A DNA stretch of 38,050 nucleotides from Candidatus Chloroploca mongolica (GTDB taxonomy: Bacteria; Chloroflexota; Chloroflexia; Chloroflexales; Chloroflexaceae): contig NZ_SIJK02000050.1 of NCBI RefSeq assembly GCF_004762035.2, positions 1 through 38,050 of the forward strand. The letters run 5' to 3'. Positions 22,185-29,885 of the stretch are shown one piece after another. Made by a program: the position numbers and the translations under genes. The notes under the pieces were generated by a model. It ran no database searches and was not told the origin of the DNA. It saw only the letters and a program-made list of their open reading frames with translations. Within the stretch, counting starts at the first letter, position 1; each line of letters starts with the position of its first letter.

Positions 22185-22236
22185 CAGGATGTTCCAATAT
22201 GCTATACTACGCAGAAGTTCAGAGAAAGGGACGAAT

Positions 22237-23109
22237 ATGCAACCAGTTGCCACTTTTTCTATCGTTGCCTTCGATCCTGAGCAGGGCGATGTTGGTGTGG
22301 CGGTTCAATCCAAGTTTCTTGCCGTTGGCTCGGTTGTCCCCTGGGCGCAAGCTGGTGTCGGTGGCCTTGCCACCCAGGCATGGGCCAATATTCGCTACGG
22401 CCCCGACGGGCTGAAACTGCTGGCCGAGGGGCTCTCCGCCGAACAGGTATGCGATCAGTTGATTGCCGATGATCCTGGACGCGATCAACGCCAGCTCGGC
22501 ATCGTTGATGCGCAGGGCCGGGTTGCCGCCTATACCGGCAGCGCTTGTATGCCCTGGGCGGGGCATTATCTCGGCGCTGGCTATACCGTGCAAGGCAATA
22601 TCCTCGCCGGGGCCAGGGTCGCCGAGGCGATCGCCGAGGCCTTTGAAATGGCCCAGGGTGAACTCGCCGAACGCCTGGTCATTGCGCTGGCAGCCGGCGA
22701 AGCAGCCGGCGGCGATCGCCGCGGGCGCCAGGCCGCCGCGCTCTATGTCGCACGCACCGGCGGTGCCTATGGTGGCAATCATGATCGTTATGTCGATTTG
22801 CGGGTTGACGATCACCCAGAGCCGATTGTTGAACTCGAACGCCTCCTCAGGCTCCACCGTCTCTATCTTACCACGTCAGATCCGGCGGCGCTGCTGCCCA
22901 TTACGCCCGAATTGACCTGCGAGATCCAGACGATGCTCAGCGAGGCGGGCTATTACGCCGGCCCTGCTGATGGCAAGTTCGAGACCCTGACCCGCAGCGC
23001 CCTTGAGACCTATGGCGGGGTCGAGAATCTCGAAATGCGCCTCACTAGTCTCGATGAGCACAAAATCGACCCGCTTGTGCTCGATTTTATGCGCCGCAAA
23101 CGAGAGTAA
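22237..23109 (+). CDS. DUF1028 (Ntn-hydrolase-like) protein with C-terminal peptidoglycan-binding-like segment
   Basis: A 290-residue protein. Residues 1-200 match DUF1028, a family with an Ntn-hydrolase-like fold: the start ATFSIVAFDPEQGDVGVAVQSKF, the internal TQAWANIRYGPDGL and the later LAAGEAAGGDRRGRQAAAL are all typical. The last about 80 residues (ELTCEIQTMLSEAGYYAG ... DGKFETLTRSALE) resemble the PG_binding_2 domain often fused to DUF1028. The substrate is unknown. ATG 22237 was chosen because AAAGGG lies 7 bases upstream and it starts at the conserved ATFSI block. It is divergent from the YigZ gene with about 52 bases between starts. Confidence 0.88.
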   Translation: MQPVATFSIVAFDPEQGDVGVAVQSKFLAVGSVVPWAQAGVGGLATQAWANIRYGPDGLKLLAEGLSAEQVCDQLIADDPGRDQRQLGIVDAQGRVAAYTGSACMPWAGHYLGAGYTVQGNILAGARVAEAIAEAFEMAQGELAERLVIALAAGEAAGGDRRGRQAAALYVARTGGAYGGNHDRYVDLRVDDHPEPIVELERLLRLHRLYLTTSDPAALLPITPELTCEIQTMLSEAGYYAGPADGKFETLTRSALETYGGVENLEMRLTSLDEHKIDPLVLDFMRRKRE

Positions 23110-23315
23110 AATCCTGCAGTTGAACAACTATACTATTGCTCGTTGCAACAGTACATTGTCGACGACAACACGCGGATCGTTCCATCATCGGAACGAGTCG
23201 CATTATTGTTGTCTATGCTTATCTTAGCACTCGACTCGTGTTATGCAAAGCATTAGAATGTGCTTAAGCGACACCACAACGTTTGCTCGTGGTATACTCG
23301 TAGTGGGAATGATGA
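23110..23315. other. Non-coding spacer before the TA cassette
   Basis: Nothing coding is visible. A 7-bp-arm hairpin TCGTTCC/GGAACGA (23177-23196) could end the DUF1028 transcript. GGTATACT just before the first 66-bp repeat resembles a -10 box that could drive the cassette. Confidence 0.4.
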
Positions 23316-23380
23316 CAGTTCAAGGCTGCGAGGTGCTGTCGTGACCGTATCAGTTCAGGCAAAGCCGCTGAACTGCTCGG
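23315..23380 (+). repeat. 66-bp direct repeat, left copy
   Basis: Matches 24145-24210 at 64 of 66 bases (substitutions only near the AGGTGCTGTC part). It starts at ACAGTTCAAGGCTGCG and ends at GAACTGCTCGG. The flanking sequences differ on both sides. It brackets the DUF4258-DUF2283 pair together with the right copy. Confidence 0.9.
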
Positions 23381-23489
23381 CATCGAGCGCCTCGACTTCA
23401 TCCGCCTGCTTGCCGAAGAAAAGACACCCTACCTCGACTACTCAGTCACTGAACTCGAAGCCGAGATCGAAACGCTTGCCCATGAGTGA
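23316..23489 (+). pseudogene. UPF0175-family antitoxin remnant
   Basis: A stop-bounded frame of 57 codons reads FKAARCCRDRISSGKAAELL..., then RLDFIRLLAEEKTPYLDYS and a short acidic C-terminus ending LAHE. This matches the helix-turn-helix end of UPF0175 antitoxins, typically GKAAELLG-x-S...FLDLLAE. There is an in-frame TGA directly before it (23313-23315), no start codon inside and no N-terminal part, so the gene is broken. The first 64 bases lie in the left 66-bp repeat. Confidence 0.7.
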
Positions 23490-23579
23490 ATAGCCAGATA
23501 CTCAGGCACTCGTGCAACTCGCCAAAAGCAATGGTTTGCACGTTTCTGTGGCAGGCAACGTCAGTGGAAAGCCATACCC

Positions 23580-23846
23580 GTGCCTCGCTTTACCTATTCA
23601 TATCACGCTCATGAAGAGATGGAGCATCGCAGGATCCCACAATCCCTCGTAGATTCCGTCCTCGAAAACCCTCAGCAGGTAGTGCCAGAGGGCAATGGAC
23701 GAGTTGCCTACCAATCTCAGGTTGATTTTGGTGGGGGCAAGATCTTCTTGCTCCGTGCCATTGTGGTTGACACTATTGACCCTGCTATCGTTGTTACGGT
23801 TTATCGCACCAGCAAGATCAGCAAATACTGGAAGACAATGCCATGA
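23580..23846 (+). CDS. DUF4258 protein, probable toxin of a TA pair
   Basis: An 88-residue protein starting MPRFTYSYHAHEEMEHRRIP, the typical DUF4258 opening (a His followed by A-x-x-x-M-x-x-R). It continues with LENPQQVVPEGNGRVAYQ and ends in VVTVYRTSKISKYW, again typical. DUF4258 proteins are RelE/BrnT-like and are usually found beside small antitoxins, so an mRNA-cleaving toxin is likely but unproven. The start is GTG 23580, with GGAAAG about 8 bases upstream. It overlaps the DUF2283 gene by 4 bases (ATGA), so the two are co-translated. Confidence 0.85.
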   Translation: MPRFTYSYHAHEEMEHRRIPQSLVDSVLENPQQVVPEGNGRVAYQSQVDFGGGKIFLLRAIVVDTIDPAIVVTVYRTSKISKYWKTMP

Positions 23847-24049
23847 AAGTTACCTACGATGCCGAAGTAGATGTGTTGCGTCTCATCTTCAGTAATGCAC
23901 CAATTGAGGAAAGTGATGAGGAGAAACCCGGTCTGATCCTCGACTATGATCAGGCAGGGAATATTGTCGGCATCGAAATCCTTGATGCCTCGAAGCGTAC
24001 TGATAATCCGTTTGCAGTTGAGTATGCCGTCATCGGGAAAGCTGCTTAG
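23843..24049 (+). CDS. DUF2283 protein, probable antitoxin
   Basis: A 68-residue acidic protein. MKVTYDAEVDVLRLIF near the start and EEKPGLILDYDQAGNIVGIEILDAS in the middle are the DUF2283 signature. The family regularly follows DUF4258 and is treated as its antitoxin. It starts in the ATGA overlap with the toxin gene. An AGCCAGGC/GCCTGGCT inverted repeat (24055-24088) follows the stop within 6 bases and may terminate transcription. Confidence 0.85.
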   Translation: MKVTYDAEVDVLRLIFSNAPIEESDEEKPGLILDYDQAGNIVGIEILDASKRTDNPFAVEYAVIGKAA

Positions 24050-24054
24050 TGCCG

Positions 24055-24088
24055 AGCCAGGCACGGGCTTCCCTACCCACGCCTGGCT
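24055..24088 (+). terminator. Possible terminator hairpin of the TA operon
   Basis: 8-bp arms AGCCAGGC (24055-24062) and GCCTGGCT (24081-24088) flank an 18-nt loop just after the DUF2283 stop. No U-tract follows, so this is tentative. Confidence 0.4.
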
Positions 24089-24144
24089 TGCCAGCGTTCC
24101 CTCAGCCCTCCGCCAAGCACACGCAGAACCAACCCGGTCAAACC

Positions 24145-24210
24145 ACAGTTCAAGGCTGCGAGGTACCGTCGTGACCGTATCAGTTCAGGCAAAGCCGCTG
24201 AACTGCTCGG
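24145..24210 (+). repeat. 66-bp direct repeat, right copy
   Basis: Second copy of the repeat at 23315-23380 (64 of 66). It encodes the same UPF0175 segment (RRDRISSGKAAELLG), but the homology stops at once after it and the frame runs into unrelated CTGCAATC(T/C)AAAA tandem-like sequence (24217-24252). It is therefore a fragment copy, not a gene. Confidence 0.9.
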
Positions 24211-24270
24211 CGCGGCAATCTGCAATCCAAAAGCTAAAACCTGCAATCTAAAACGAGGTGCCACCGCCTG

Positions 24271-25977
24271 CTAGCCTCGTCCAAGGGTTCCATGCAGCAC
24301 TGCGTCGAGCAGCCGTCGTCGTGTCGCTTCGCTTGCGCTTAGGCTTACCTCGAGTTGGTCGCAGAAGGCCATCAGTTCGTCGACCCTCGCGACGATGCGG
24401 TGTTGCTCGGCGAGTGGGGGGAGGGGAACAACAAATTGGGTCAGGTCGGTAAGTCGAAAGCTGTTCTTGATGCCCCGCTGAGGCTTGTTAAACTGATCTT
24501 GCGCGAATGACGAGCGGAATAGCTCTGGCAAGTAGTGCCCTTTCATTTCGGGCATTAGCCGTACCATCGCTGTGTGCTGGTTAATGTATGCCTCGCCGAA
24601 TCCCTCAGGGATTAAGCCGAGCATCCCCACATCGCCAGTTATTGAGATGAGGATGTCGCCAGATTCGAGGCGAGTTCGTGTGCCTTCACCATCAACCGGT
24701 GGCTTTACTCGCTGAACATTGCCAAGGCGAAGACGATAGTGATCTTTTGAAAGGTTTCCCATGCGAATAAAGATCGCCCCTTCAGGTGAATAGTGTTTCG
24801 CCCAGTCGCGTGAGCCACTGGTAACAAATTCGCTCAGATTGCCGAGGCGCGTCCACGCCCACCCATCGGGTAGTTCAAATGAGAGTTCATCCTCAGAAAG
24901 GAATGGTAGCAACTTCTCCCGCTTAATCCTCCCCGTTATCATCATCCGCGCCTTCTCCTCCTTTATCCGCCTCAACAACTCCGCCGCTGGCTCATCCGCC
25001 GGGTCTTGCGGCACGAGTTTGCCGCGCACGGCGAGGTTGAGAATGGTCTGGCGCAGGGCTTTGATCTGGTCGGGGCGGGTGGTGATTGCGCCGAGATGCT
25101 CCAAGGCAAACGCGGCGTGCGCGTGGAATGTCTGCGGGTCGGGGGTGGGCTGGCTCAGGCGGGCGAGGCTCGCTGCCGCCAGTCGGTCGCGGGTCGCTTC
25201 CCGCCGCGCCCGCGTTGCCTCGATCTGGTCGCACAGCGCCATGAGTTCGTCGACCTTCGCGACGATGCGGTGTTGCTCGGCGAGTGGGGGGAGGGGAAAG
25301 GGTGTCCGAATAATCTTTACTTTAGAAATATTTGGTTGAGCCCCCCCTTCACTCGCTGAGCGAAACTGTTCTCGCTGCGAAAGCAAGAATAAAAACAAGT
25401 AGTGACTGAAAACGCCAAGATAAGAGCTACAACCGCATACTGCCTGATTCGTAACAGCCTGCTCAGCCAAGACCGCAACCTTGCCAATAGTTGCGCCGTA
25501 CATCGCGATCAGTACATCACCCGGCTTGTTTAAGCGAAACGAACCCTTTTTAATTGCCAACTCTGTAACTGTTTCTTCGGAACCAGCTAACTGTCGATTG
25601 TCATTGAGTTCACCGGACTTCAGCCACGTAATACCACCCCCATAGAAATCGGCATTACCGCGCAGTGGCGTAGAACCAGAACCCCAATCGCCGATCGACC
25701 CGAGACGTGTCCATATCCAGCTATCAGGAATAACGAACAGTGCTTCTTCGGAGTCTACCAGTTCAACATCAAATTTTCTTACCCCTCCCTTCTTTTCCCT
25801 ACGCGCCTTCTCATTCTCGATCCGCTTCAGCAACTCTGTCGCTGGCTCATCCGCTGGATCCTGTGGCACAAGTTTGCCGCGCACGGCGAGGTCGAGGATG
25901 AAGCGGCGCAGTCGGACGATGGCATCAGGCGCGTCGGCGATGCGGTCGTAGTGGGTCAAGAGTTGGTCGGCGTTCAT
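24271..25977 (-). CDS. hsdS: Type I restriction-modification specificity subunit HsdS
   Basis: A 568-residue DNA-recognition subunit that directs the methylase/nuclease complex to a bipartite target. Two target-recognition domains are visible (about residues 80-230 and 365-520). Each is preceded by the conserved helix LAVRGKLVPQDPADEPA and followed by PLPPLAEQHRIVA-x-VDELMA. The half-subunits are internal duplicates, with nearly identical DNA in the conserved parts (see repeats). Its start overlaps the hsdM stop by 4 bases (ATGA). Full length with both domains, so probably functional. Confidence 0.95.
   Translation of the reverse strand: MNADQLLTHYDRIADAPDAIVRLRRFILDLAVRGKLVPQDPADEPATELLKRIENEKARREKKGGVRKFDVELVDSEEALFVIPDSWIWTRLGSIGDWGSGSTPLRGNADFYGGGITWLKSGELNDNRQLAGSEETVTELAIKKGSFRLNKPGDVLIAMYGATIGKVAVLAEQAVTNQAVCGCSSYLGVFSHYLFLFLLSQREQFRSASEGGAQPNISKVKIIRTPFPLPPLAEQHRIVAKVDELMALCDQIEATRARREATRDRLAAASLARLSQPTPDPQTFHAHAAFALEHLGAITTRPDQIKALRQTILNLAVRGKLVPQDPADEPAAELLRRIKEEKARMMITGRIKREKLLPFLSEDELSFELPDGWAWTRLGNLSEFVTSGSRDWAKHYSPEGAIFIRMGNLSKDHYRLRLGNVQRVKPPVDGEGTRTRLESGDILISITGDVGMLGLIPEGFGEAYINQHTAMVRLMPEMKGHYLPELFRSSFAQDQFNKPQRGIKNSFRLTDLTQFVVPLPPLAEQHRIVARVDELMAFCDQLEVSLSASEATRRRLLDAVLHGTLGRG
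24374..24428. repeat. HsdS internal 55-bp repeat, distal copy
   Basis: Matches 25244-25298 with one mismatch (CGACCC against CGACCT). It encodes the conserved PLPPLAEQHRIVARVDEL segment after target-recognition domain 2. A second pair of conserved-segment repeats lies near 25005-25050 and 25863-25910. Confidence 0.9.
25244..25298. repeat. HsdS internal 55-bp repeat, proximal copy
   Basis: Pairs with 24374-24428. The identity at DNA level exceeds what protein conservation alone needs, since synonymous positions are also identical; this suggests recent gene conversion or selection for recombination. Confidence 0.9.
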
Positions 25978-27431
25978 CGCAGCAGCGCCTCCGCCAAAAT
26001 CGCCTTTAGCTGGTTGCGCAAAGAGGCTGTCTCGCTCTCGGCCCTGGTCAGTTCGGCGAGCAGTTGTTCGGGGTCGCCGTGGTTGTCCGCGACGGTATGG
26101 GGGTTCTTGATGTCGAGGTTATAGCCGCGTGCCTTTATCTCCTCGGCGGTGACCTGCCACGCCTGCGGTGTCTCTTCACGCCCTGTGCGCTGCGGCCCGC
26201 CCCACCAGGCGATGCACGGTTGCATATGCTCTAGCCTGATCGGCTTCGTCATCGAGTAGGCCTTTTGCCCCGCTGGCACCTGGTGTTCGTAGTACCAGAT
26301 TGTCTCGGTCGGTTGGCCCTTTTCAAAGAAGAGCAGGTTGGTACCGATTGAGGCGTAGGGTTTGAAGACCGAGTTGGGCAGGCGCACAATCGTGTGCAGG
26401 TTGCACTCGGTCATCAAGTGCTCTTTGAGGCGTGTCTTGACGCCCTCGCCAAAGAGTGTGCCATCGGGTAGCACGACAGCAGCGCGGCCACCTGGCTTCA
26501 ACAGGCGGATGATCAGGGCCAGAAAGAGATCCGCCGTCTCTTTCGTACGGAAGTGCTGCGGGAAGTTGCTCTCGATGCCGTCCTCTTCGCGCCCCCCAAA
26601 GGGCGGATTGGTCAGGACGATATCAACGCGATCTTTCTGCTCCCAGCTGATGTAGGGGCGGGCCAGAGTGTTGTCATGGCGCACGAAGCTCGGCGCTTCA
26701 ATGCCGTGCAGCAGCATATTGGTCACGCAGAGCATATGCGGCAGTTGCTTCTTTTCAACGGCCCGCAGGCTTGCCTGCATCTGCTGTTCGTCCTCAGGAA
26801 GCTTCACATAGCGCGCGCGCATATGGCGGATCGCAGAGGTAAGAAAGCCGCCTGTCCCGCAGGCCGGGTCGAAGAGAAGCTCGCCTGGCCTAGGGTCGAT
26901 GCGATCAACCATAAAGGCAGTGACGGCGCGAGGAGTGTAGTATTCGCCCGCGTTGCCAGCCGATTGCAGGTCGTTGAGGATCTGCTCGTAGATATCACCA
27001 AAGTGCTGGCGCTCGGTCAGGTTGTTGAAATCGATCCCATTGATCTTGTTCACCACCTGGCGCATCAACTGGCCGGACTTCATATAGTTGTAGGCGTCTT
27101 CAAACACATCGCGCACCACGCGCCGACGATCGTCGGGCTTGCCCGTCAAAGGCAGGTTCTTCAACTCGGGGAAGAGTTCATCGTTGACGAAGGTAAGCAG
27201 CGCCTGGCCAGTAAGACCTTCCGGGTCTGCCGCCCAGGTACGCCACTGCAAGCGCACGGGAATTGGTGAGCGATACGTCGCGTCCAGCAACTCCAGTTCC
27301 TGATCCTGGTCATCAATAATCTTGAGAAAGAACATCCAGCATAGCTGGCTAATGCGCTGGGCGTCACCATCAACACCCGTATCCTGGCGCATAATATCTT
27401 GAATGGACTTGACGAGGGTACGAACAGACAT
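25974..27431 (-). CDS. hsdM: Type I restriction-modification DNA methyltransferase subunit HsdM
   Basis: A 485-residue N6-adenine methyltransferase subunit. The HsdM N-terminal helical domain spans about residues 5-150. The SAM-binding motif I is DPACGTGGF (188-196) and the catalytic motif IV is NPPF (275-278). It methylates host DNA at the site chosen by HsdS and supplies part of the restriction complex. Length and both motifs are normal. It begins 3 bases after the hsdR stop and its stop overlaps the hsdS start. Confidence 0.96.
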   Translation of the reverse strand: MSVRTLVKSIQDIMRQDTGVDGDAQRISQLCWMFFLKIIDDQDQELELLDATYRSPIPVRLQWRTWAADPEGLTGQALLTFVNDELFPELKNLPLTGKPDDRRRVVRDVFEDAYNYMKSGQLMRQVVNKINGIDFNNLTERQHFGDIYEQILNDLQSAGNAGEYYTPRAVTAFMVDRIDPRPGELLFDPACGTGGFLTSAIRHMRARYVKLPEDEQQMQASLRAVEKKQLPHMLCVTNMLLHGIEAPSFVRHDNTLARPYISWEQKDRVDIVLTNPPFGGREEDGIESNFPQHFRTKETADLFLALIIRLLKPGGRAAVVLPDGTLFGEGVKTRLKEHLMTECNLHTIVRLPNSVFKPYASIGTNLLFFEKGQPTETIWYYEHQVPAGQKAYSMTKPIRLEHMQPCIAWWGGPQRTGREETPQAWQVTAEEIKARGYNLDIKNPHTVADNHGDPEQLLAELTRAESETASLRNQLKAILAEALLR

Positions 27432-27434
27432 AGT

Positions 27435-29885
27435 TCAGGCGGTCTCCTGGTAGAGTGCAGCTTGCAAGTCGTGTACCGCGCGATCGAAGTCGTCGCGAGT
27501 ACCAAAGGCTTTGATCAGTTGCGTCGGGGTGCCAAGGGCAGAAAAGGGCGGAATCTTGAGCACCTGCGGATCGTCGAGGTTGAGCATGCCCTCATCCTCA
27601 TACTTCGCCAACAGAGCTTCAAGTACGGCACGAGCCTGAGAGCCGTATCGGGCAAAGACATCGCGTTTCTTGACCTTATCGGCCCGTTCGCGGCGCGTCA
27701 GCGGCTTTGCATCAAAAGCAAGGTGGCAGATCAGATCAAACGGATCGAAATCCTTGCCGACTTCATCGGCGAGCAGGTCAAGGCTCAACCCCTCGGCTGC
27801 CAACTCTTCGACAATCGCCTGCTTGCGCTCAATCGACTCCCAACGCTTCAAAAAAGCATTGAGGCTGACAAACCGCTTCTTGAGCGCCTTCTTGGTATAA
27901 TCGTGCAGGCTCTCGGTAATGAGCTTGCCATACTCATCGAGGTATTCTACGCGCTCAGCAATAATCTTGACCGCGACCCCGTCCACATAGACTTTGCGTT
28001 GCCCGTAGTCACCCAGCGGGAAGCTGATGTCAGGCGGCCCAACAACAACCGTCTCCTCCTCGCCAGGCTCGGGGGCCAGCGGCTCGTCATCATCGCCAAC
28101 GGGCACCTCGTCTTCAGGCGGAGTGAGCGGATCGCTCTCGCCGGGCTCGTAGATCTGCACCGGCTCGCCGTCAAACTCCGGGTCAGCAAAGTGGTTCGTC
28201 GCGCCACGGAAGTCCATCAGGGTAAAATAGTACTTGCGCGTATCTTCATGCACGCGAGTACCGCGCCCAACGATCTGCTTGAACTCAGTCATCGAGCCAA
28301 CCTCGCGGTCGAGCACAATCAACCGACAGGTCTGTGCATCCACACCGGTCGAAAGCAGACGCGAGGTTGTAACAATGACCGGATGCGATGCCTCCGGGTC
28401 GATAAAATTGCCAAGTTGCGCCTGGCCCTCGGCGTCGGCCCCAGTAATCCGCATGACATAGCGATAATTCGCGGCCACGAGGTCGGCATTCTCATTAATC
28501 AAAGCCTGGCGCATGCGTGCGGCGTGCTCTTGGTCAACACAGAAGACGATCGTTTTCTGGAAGCGGTCGCCACTCTCCTTCAGGAAAGACGTCACCTTGC
28601 GGGCCACCACCTTCGTCCGCTCATCAAGCACAAGCGTACGGTCAAAATCCTTGACATTATAGATCCGGTCTTCGACCTCATCGCCCTCGCGGTCGCGCTG
28701 ACCGCGCTCAGGGCGATAGCCCGCGACATCGCGGTCAATATGCACCTTGACCACCTTGTAGGGCGCGAGGAAGCCATCGCGGATCCCTTGCTTGAGCGAA
28801 TAGGAGTAGACCGGCTCGCCAAAGTAATGGATATTAGAGACATAGCGGGTCTCCTTCGGGGTCGCAGTGAGACCAATCTGCGTCGCCGCAGCAAAATACT
28901 CGAGGATCTCACGCCAGGCCGAATCCTCCGCCGCGCTCCCACGATGGCACTCATCGATCACAATCAGGTCAAAAAAACCAGGCGAAAACTCCCGAAACAG
29001 TTTTTGGCGCTCCTCAGGGCCAGTAATCGCCTGGTAAAGACCGAGGTAAATCTCATAGGCTGTATCAATGCGGCGCTTCTTATCAAGCGCGAGGGGCAAA
29101 TCCTCAGTCGTACCATCACTGCGCTCGATCGTCTTCGCGCTCGTCGAAAGCCGGGCCATCGCCGCACCAAACGGGCGGAAATCATTAACCATCGTCTGAT
29201 CGACCAGCACATTGCGGTCAGCAAGGAAAAGAATGCGCTGCTTACGTCCCGCCTTCCAGAGACGCCAGATAATCTGGAAGGCCGTATAGGTCTTGCCAGT
29301 CCCCGTCGCCATAACGAGCAGAACCCGCTCCTGCCCTCTGGCGATAGCCTCGATAGCCGCATTAACCGCACTCACCTGATAATAACGCGGAGCCTTGCCG
29401 CCGCCGTCATCGAAATAATCCTGAAGCACAAGCGCCTCAGCCTCGGGCGTCAGACCCTTCCAGGCTCGATAGCGGCCCCAGAGTTCTGCCGGTGAAGGAA
29501 AGGCATATAGACTCAACGTCTCCTCAAGCTGCGCGCCGGTGCCAGTGCGGTCGTGGAACACAAAACCATCGCCATTCGACGCGAAGACAAAGGGGATATC
29601 AAGTGTCTGAGCATAGTCAAGAGCCTGTTGCATACCATCGCCAACACTATGGGTATTATCCTTCGCCTCAATAATGGCAACCGGAAGATTGGGCTTATAG
29701 TAAAGAATATAATCAGCGCGCTTCCCCTTGCCGCGCGTCACCAACTTGCCACGCACAATAATGCGGCCATTCGTAAAGCTCACCTCTTCGCGGATCTGCG
29801 CCAACTCATCCCAACCCGCCCGACGCAGGGCAGGCGTAATGAATTTCGTACAAATATCACGCTCGCTGAGGCTCTTTTTATCCAT
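27435..29885 (-). CDS. hsdR: Type I restriction endonuclease subunit HsdR
   Basis: An 816-residue motor-nuclease subunit. The N-terminal PD-(D/E)xK nuclease shows D58 (RADYILYY), E73-A-K75 and Q87. The SF2 translocase follows with Walker A ATGTGKT (193-199), DECH (311-314), LTATP and the late motif QIVGRGTRVHE. The C-terminal about 150 residues resemble the EcoEI R C-terminal domain that joins HsdM. It cuts DNA unmethylated at the target after translocation. It is the first gene of the hsdRMS operon. The Shine-Dalgarno is weak, and a GCTGG/CCAGC hairpin sits just upstream of the ATG. Confidence 0.95.
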   Translation of the reverse strand: MDKKSLSERDICTKFITPALRRAGWDELAQIREEVSFTNGRIIVRGKLVTRGKGKRADYILYYKPNLPVAIIEAKDNTHSVGDGMQQALDYAQTLDIPFVFASNGDGFVFHDRTGTGAQLEETLSLYAFPSPAELWGRYRAWKGLTPEAEALVLQDYFDDGGGKAPRYYQVSAVNAAIEAIARGQERVLLVMATGTGKTYTAFQIIWRLWKAGRKQRILFLADRNVLVDQTMVNDFRPFGAAMARLSTSAKTIERSDGTTEDLPLALDKKRRIDTAYEIYLGLYQAITGPEERQKLFREFSPGFFDLIVIDECHRGSAAEDSAWREILEYFAAATQIGLTATPKETRYVSNIHYFGEPVYSYSLKQGIRDGFLAPYKVVKVHIDRDVAGYRPERGQRDREGDEVEDRIYNVKDFDRTLVLDERTKVVARKVTSFLKESGDRFQKTIVFCVDQEHAARMRQALINENADLVAANYRYVMRITGADAEGQAQLGNFIDPEASHPVIVTTSRLLSTGVDAQTCRLIVLDREVGSMTEFKQIVGRGTRVHEDTRKYYFTLMDFRGATNHFADPEFDGEPVQIYEPGESDPLTPPEDEVPVGDDDEPLAPEPGEEETVVVGPPDISFPLGDYGQRKVYVDGVAVKIIAERVEYLDEYGKLITESLHDYTKKALKKRFVSLNAFLKRWESIERKQAIVEELAAEGLSLDLLADEVGKDFDPFDLICHLAFDAKPLTRRERADKVKKRDVFARYGSQARAVLEALLAKYEDEGMLNLDDPQVLKIPPFSALGTPTQLIKAFGTRDDFDRAVHDLQAALYQETA

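Follow-up and report, generated by a model that had tools for sequence, protein, structure and literature searches.

In the 38,050-nt stretch of DNA analysed here (hereafter the window), from a filamentous photosynthetic bacterium, a repeat search revealed two direct repeats of 67 bp, called the left and right copies, which start 830 nt apart and are identical at 65 of 67 positions (97%), i.e., two positions differ. Two near-identical repeats at this distance had been expected from a first inspection of the sequence (the original prediction), as 66 bp with 64 matches instead of 67 bp with 65. Also as expected, the repeats flank an operon of two genes encoding the domains DUF4258 and DUF2283, both of which exceed the respective Pfam cut-off and the genes for which overlap by 4 nt (Table 1). 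The right copy is followed by a short repeat array and by the genes of a type I restriction-modification system, and beyond hsdR stand a 365-aa open reading frame (ORF) without a Pfam match and then a CobN/Mg-chelatase gene. The unit of the short array recurs many times in other genomes of the family, and the array is longer in Ca. Chloroploca sp. Khr17 than in the window. A scan from 22189 to 29885, which covered six genes and two UPF0175 fragments, gave no match to a transposase or an integrase, and a tRNA-linked island was rejected, as the window contains no tRNA.

Table 1. Features at the locus and at the second site of the genus (coordinates are those of the window unless a contig or locus is named)
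Feature	Position	Strand	Basis and remarks
Leader of the former UPF0175 gene, TTGCTCGTGGTATACTCGTA	23283..23302	+	extended -10 like TGGTATACT; putative promoter
Left 67-bp copy, native, with leader and tail retained	23315..23381	+	repeat search; B7-9 shares 62/67
Headless UPF0175 tail, 35 codons and stop	23382..23489	+	PF03683 positions 32-75, 50.7 bits over 23316-23486
Presumed inserted segment (toxin-antitoxin pair and flanks)	23495..24144	+	presumed identity of the insert
DUF4258 gene, GTG start, predicted RelE/BECR-type toxin	23580..23846	+	PF14076, 32 bits, cut-off 25
DUF2283 gene, predicted antitoxin	23843..24049	+	PF10049, 71.8 bits, cut-off 23; antitoxin role suggested by the pairing
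Right 67-bp copy, bare fragment, both edges foreign	24145..24211	+	same edges in Khr17, C137:470-536
Short repeat array, CTGCAATCTAAAAC-type, directly after the right copy	24212..24256	+	unit matches several other genomes of the family
Type I restriction-modification: hsdS 24271-25977, hsdM 25974-27431, hsdR 27435-29885	24271..29885	-	
UPF0175-DUF3368 site, Khr17 contig C9	L043:8006-8793		

The repeats and their origin

The longest exact direct repeat between 22000 and 26000 is 44 nt, while the maximum over 200 mononucleotide shuffles was 16 nt. We also screened the window and 20 stretches of 20 kb from the same genome, together 438,050 bases, for direct repeats of at least 40 nt and at least 90% identity whose copies lie over 100 nt but no more than 3 kb from each other. 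Ten rows were obtained, two of them in the window (the left/right pair and one inside hsdS); six of the others have spacings of 155-300 nt, and the remaining two come from one family of 132-134 nt with spacings of 1.65 and 2.37 kb. When the whole draft genome (160 contigs) was searched with the 67 bp, only these two places matched, and a genome-wide family of the repeat was hence rejected. A larger repeat family in relatives was rejected as well: with a 223-bp query against 61 genomes, stretches of 45 nt or more were confined to three Chloroploca genomes, and all other matches were 44 nt or shorter. No special structure was recognized in the 67 bp, the folding of which (z = -1.0 to -1.3) was not clearly better than that of shuffled sequences. 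Nor was a sigma-70 promoter at the repeats supported, as a scan of 23100-24300 selected one promoter-like site (23231-23259), with 0.9 expected by chance; terminators in the same scan numbered zero.

Both repeats derive, as the original prediction held, from a gene of the UPF0175 family. The left copy together with its tail matches UPF0175 at 50.7 bits (cut-off, 27.9), reaching the last of the 75 profile positions, and runs on beyond the repeat for 35 codons and a stop, about 36 codons having been claimed. The right copy, read in the same frame, gives QFKAARYRRDRISSGKAAELLG; its open stretch of 32 aa, scanned alone, has no Pfam match, and its neighbours on either side are unrelated to UPF0175, so that it is indeed a bare fragment ending at the repeat edge. 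Immediately ahead of the left repeat are two in-frame TGA codons, and no ATG, GTG or TTG precedes the matched part; with neither a start codon nor the N-terminal part, the left UPF0175 sequence is a remnant only, having no usable start as it stands. Upstream of it stands the leader, an identical 20-mer that each of the three Chloroploca genomes contains a single time, directly ahead of a UPF0175 remnant in every case; a fourth occurrence, in Ca. Chloroploca asiatica B7-9, has three mismatches. This leader might now feed transcription into the downstream operon; the promoter scan, which also demands a -35 hexamer, did not select it and gives no above-chance support.

An intact donor gene, the search for which had been proposed, was not found: none of the five other UPF0175 matches in the genome has a DNA match to the 67 bp or to the remnant. 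The best relative of the remnant outside Chloroploca, among the matches listed, is 64% identical, and a protein search of the class (E-value of 1e-8) hit three of 158 genomes, all of them Chloroploca. We then considered 16 relatives from other genera, out of at least 54 relatives found; in 10 of the 16, but not in the other six, the longest ORF to start in the 200 nt that follow UPF0175 is a DUF3368 gene above the Pfam cut-off. In these respects, i.e., the assignment to UPF0175 by Pfam and the neighbouring DUF3368 in relatives, the remnant resembles the COG2886/UPF0175-PIN type II toxin-antitoxin (TA) modules as they appear in the relevant part of Makarova et al. 2009 (PMC2701414), from which the window differs in lacking both the N-terminal part (positions 1-31) and the PIN gene. 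Given also that Khr17 keeps a UPF0175-DUF3368 module elsewhere, the idea that the DUF4258-DUF2283 pair lies amid the ruins of another TA locus is supported. By PADLOC, the UPF0175 tail weakly matches two candidate models named PDC-S70 and the TA pair matches none; no NCBIfam model was hit by the remnant or by the TA pair, and searches for the tail gave no plasmid match and no relative among viral contigs.

The DUF4258-DUF2283 pair

DUF4258 would probably act as an RNase-like toxin with a RelE fold, restrained by DUF2283 translated from the overlapping start. DUF4258 (PF14076) is indeed placed among the BECR-fold toxins of the RelE/ParE superfamily in the relevant part of PMC11980606. The arrangement in the window, with the toxin gene first and its partner downstream in a two-gene operon, is also that given for DUF4258 toxins of E. 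coli in the section of PMC10790755 concerned with them. The partner differs, nonetheless, from those named in the pertinent portions of the literature, namely MqsA fusions (PMC11980606) and HicB (PMC4963859). Furthermore, a table in PMC11980606 gives the order for DUF4258 as A/T, which we take as antitoxin first, with the function as unknown, while the window has the toxin first. Our literature search returned DUF2283 in no paper and DUF4258 together with DUF2283 in none; searches for DUF4258 among plasmids and for DUF2283 among phages gave no match.

DUF2283 was matched in 33 of 82 genomes of the order, and 30 loci were examined for their neighbourhoods. In nine of them, including the window, the DUF2283 reaches 59% identity or more to that of the window; in the other 21 it is remote or unalignable, and these were left uncounted. 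The pair is conserved in relatives: in the nine loci, DUF4258 is whole and directly upstream of DUF2283 in three (the window, G064 and G012), cut down to a C-terminal piece in four (Khr17, G013, G006 and G017), and absent in two (G028 and G035, the latter having only a partial DUF2283 match itself). Seven ORFs upstream of DUF2283 were scanned: three gave DUF4258 above the cut-off, one gave a weak PBECR2 match below the cut-off, and three gave none. Loss of the toxin more often than of its partner would be the pattern expected of a TA pair, although the count is blind to the reverse case, in which the partner is lost and the toxin kept, because the search began from DUF2283. The C-terminal pieces in three other genera stand before an open DUF2283 (L142:1430-1498 in G013, L147:1656-1754 in G006, and L153:509-595 in G017). 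Together with Khr17, where the toxin gene is apparently broken by an IS200-type element, they suggest a common fate of such pairs, in which DUF2283 stays open.

Comparison within Chloroploca

Our comparison set within the genus consists of three draft genomes, namely that of the window (6.3 Mb), of which the window is one entire contig (G000:C106), B7-9 (contig NZ_LYXE01000101.1, 49,334 bases) and Khr17 (contigs NZ_RYFF01000036.1, 58,085 bases, and NZ_RYFF01000059.1, 30,322 bases), and the window is about 93-95% identical in nucleotides to the other two in long common blocks.

Khr17 has the TA pair and the right copy with the same edges as in the window (C137:104-572, 96%), the right copies differing at four of 67 sites; the right copy is therefore older than the split between the window's genome and Khr17. 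The DUF4258 gene of Khr17 is split, with its 3' part on C137 and its 5' part on C87, where it adjoins a gene with an IS200 transposase domain (Y1_Tnp, 121.4 bits), and the two contigs presumably adjoin through this IS200-type element. The left copy is missing from Khr17: homology to the window stops at 23265 and resumes at 23495, 6 nt past the UPF0175 stop. The gap is filled by a DDE transposase gene (DUF772 and DDE_Tnp_1_6), belonging to what we take to be an IS1182-type element, and by a 38-nt copy of a neighbouring gene of 901 aa, such that direct copies of the 38 nt surround the element (95%; L042 952-989 and 3268-3305). The 901-aa ORF (L042:3055-5757), having no Pfam match, lies between DUF1028 and the TA locus, and the window has no match there.

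B7-9 matches the window from 23268 to 23459 at 93%, covering the leader, the ATGATG, an identical headless joint and most of the tail, and then jumps straight to the homologue of 29914, continuing to 35102. It thus has a left copy but is devoid of the TA pair, the right copy, the end of the UPF0175 tail and hsdSMR, and a search of its whole genome gave no match to DUF2283. The state of B7-9 is best read as a deletion rather than the original empty site, because past 23459 the UPF0175 tail has its normal end in both the window and Khr17 contig C9 (see below). The contig of B7-9 breaks off 192 nt past the match, and blastn aligned nothing of the left flank with the window; orthology of the locus hence rests on the right flank. 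The empty site that the original prediction had proposed to look for was found only in part: one copy without the pair does exist, but the end points (23459 and 29914) fall outside the repeats and the restriction genes are gone as well. None of the three Chloroploca genomes has this locus in a state that lacks the pair but keeps a single uncut copy, and in none of them do the same repeats surround unrelated content. To judge from these alignments, the locus is rearranged differently in each of the three.

A second case was found on Khr17 contig C9, where another TA module of the genus has been inserted with a 48-nt direct repeat on either side (88% identity, spacing of 740). The module starts with the same leader 20-mer as the window's remnant. 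Its UPF0175, again headless, matches the profile at positions 23-75 (57.5 bits) and has an open frame from a TTG or GTG, and a DUF3368 gene (53.1 bits) lies downstream. At the syntenic places of the window's own genome (G000:C84) and B7-9 (G001:C108), there is one copy of the repeat (40 nt, 95%) and no module; in all three genomes the site is framed by a sulfatase-like and a SEC-C-like gene, both named by eye. The sequence left of the Khr17 module is, nonetheless, also unlike the other two genomes over about 675 bp; in those two a palindromic element stands there, and this event is therefore not a bare insertion either. The palindromic element (L114:1363-1481 and L115:1545-1663), with GGACTTTGCAT ends and GTCCGCAGATTACGCAG arms, resembles a small non-autonomous repeat, and similar sequences, TGATGCAAAG / GCAAAGTCC, are found at the ends of the IS1182-type element on Khr17 C87 (L042 996 and 2820).

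The tail and part of the repeat on C9 match the window from 23338 to 23482 at 94%. In the UPF0175 frame, nine of 47 codons differ between the left copy of the window and C9 (seven synonymous and two nonsynonymous), nine of 47 between the window and B7-9 (one and eight), and 10 of 40 between B7-9 and C9 (five and five). Small as these numbers are, they suggest that selection maintained the UPF0175 sequence over some of its past and that in B7-9 it has undergone decay.

Origin of the arrangement

The locus in the window is most likely the scar of the pair's insertion. As to the mechanism, we tentatively prefer, at somewhat less than even confidence, insertion of the DUF4258-DUF2283 module into the headless UPF0175 locus with a long duplication of the target, the right duplicate having later been cut. 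The ancestral Chloroploca locus would have contained a UPF0175 antitoxin gene that was already headless. At the end of this gene, the module would have entered by the same route as that on C9, and the target stretch, comprising the repeat and the tail (23315 to about 23490) and hence up to about 175 bp in length, would have been duplicated on the far side of the insert, the TA segment (from about 23495) having entered just after the original stretch. The left duplicate would then have retained its native leader and tail, while the right one would have been trimmed at its 3' side to 67 bp as the short-repeat array and the hsd genes became its neighbours.

Several observations are consistent with this course of events. 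The left copy has both native flanks, its leader and tail being found also in B7-9 (23268-23459) and its tail on C9, and the right copy starts at the same base as the left but lacks either flank, just as expected of a duplicate that has been truncated. The presence of the right copy with unchanged edges in Khr17 places the event before that split. The tail is homologous to C9 up to around 23482 and the TA segment is homologous to Khr17 from 23495 on, which puts the edge of the insert at the end of the UPF0175 gene. The C9 module, with its single-copy sites in the other two genomes, furthermore provides a precedent in the same genus. A comparable process is known from Helicobacter pylori, in which insertion of restriction-modification genes with long target duplication was described by Nobusato et al. 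2000 (as cited in PMC1643837 and PMC3874152), the duplications being of the order of 100 bp according to the part of PMC3874152 that deals with restriction systems. As portrayed in those citing passages, a selfish unit stands between long direct repeats of its target, with one copy at the unoccupied site, and the C9 module matches this description. The window departs from it in that the right duplicate is incomplete, a clean empty site is missing, and the unit is a TA pair, though hsd genes adjoin.

Plain target duplication predicts, however, that the UPF0175 sequence continues on the right copy, whereas the 67 bp are all that the copies have in common; the left one extends into 105 nt of UPF0175 tail and the right one has none of it. 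A right copy of only 67 bp agrees with a simple duplication only if part of it was subsequently deleted, and direct traces of such a deletion are lacking. It also counts against the long target duplication that Khr17 lacks the left copy, with a break within about 13 nt of the presumed edge of the insert, a coincidence that is left unexplained. In addition, the two copies in the window differ from each other at fewer sites (two of 67) than do the right copies (four) or the left copies (five) between species, a pattern not predicted by a pure model of an old duplication.

Alternatively, the pair might already have stood beside UPF0175, and the right 67 bp might have been copied from the left ones through template switching or be the start of a deleted tandem unit (67 bp, tail and TA pair). 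Such a patch or lost unit would leave the same picture, with edges that are foreign and sharp on both sides of the right copy, and the 38-nt copy around the IS1182-type element of Khr17 tells us that small patches do arise here. Why the TA pair starts exactly at the end of the UPF0175 gene would, however, be left without explanation, and searches of the three Chloroploca genomes turned up no second tandem unit; we rank this possibility second and regard it as rather unlikely. The original prediction had spoken of a cassette integration or a recombination scar on account of the sharp repeat edges. The edges are real, those of the right copy being common to Khr17, but the clean empty site that would go with such an event was not found.

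The repeats had also been thought to allow loss or amplification of the pair, and 44 nt of uninterrupted identity would indeed offer a substrate for homologous recombination. The closer likeness of the copies within the genome than between orthologues hints at gene conversion, as does site 55, which is T in both copies of the window and C in the left copy of B7-9 and the right copy of Khr17; these numbers are small and prove nothing. Against active excision or amplification through the repeats, the predicted single-copy product (leader, 67 bp and right flank) is present in none of the three draft genomes, the loss in B7-9 has its end points outside the repeats, and the right copy has been in place since before Khr17 split off. 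We thus consider it improbable.

Sites of the attC type carry the core motifs GTTRRRY and RYYYAAC. Least probable of all is that the pair represents an integron-type cassette, with the repeats as attC-like sites, or else a transposon bounded by its ends: TA cassettes do occur in super-integrons as noted in the pertinent part of PMC2654758, and all three genomes have integron-integrase matches above the NCBIfam cut-off on other contigs, but neither core motif exists in either copy or within 40 nt around, the folding of the 67 nt is little better than that of shuffles, the repeats are UPF0175 coding sequence, and the genes scanned around them gave no transposase or integrase match.

To our knowledge, the means by which TA pairs on chromosomes spread when no transposase is visible are unsettled. 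TA modules of unrelated families in Chloroploca (UPF0175-DUF3368 and DUF4258-DUF2283) could move as stand-alone units that need no transposase and duplicate between 48 and about 175 bp of their target, one of them having landed in the wreck of the other; as a general statement, this is doubtful. Movement of this kind has been proposed for restriction-modification genes. The locus is in this sense a modest example of the movement of a TA pair, a known kind of event and not a new type of system. Its value lies in the concrete junctions that the window, the C9 module and the two single-copy sites offer for comparison with the long target duplications of restriction-modification genes, and it is through the C9 module and those two sites that the mechanism becomes open to testing.

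As for the integron integrases, matches to the family TIGR02249 above its curated cut-off are found at G000:C86:66099-66857 (L174, 311.6 bits), G001:C119:553-1314 (L173, 314 bits) and G002:C102:69697-70638 (L172, 474 bits), and chromosomal integrons in phototrophic Chloroflexota are hence possible.
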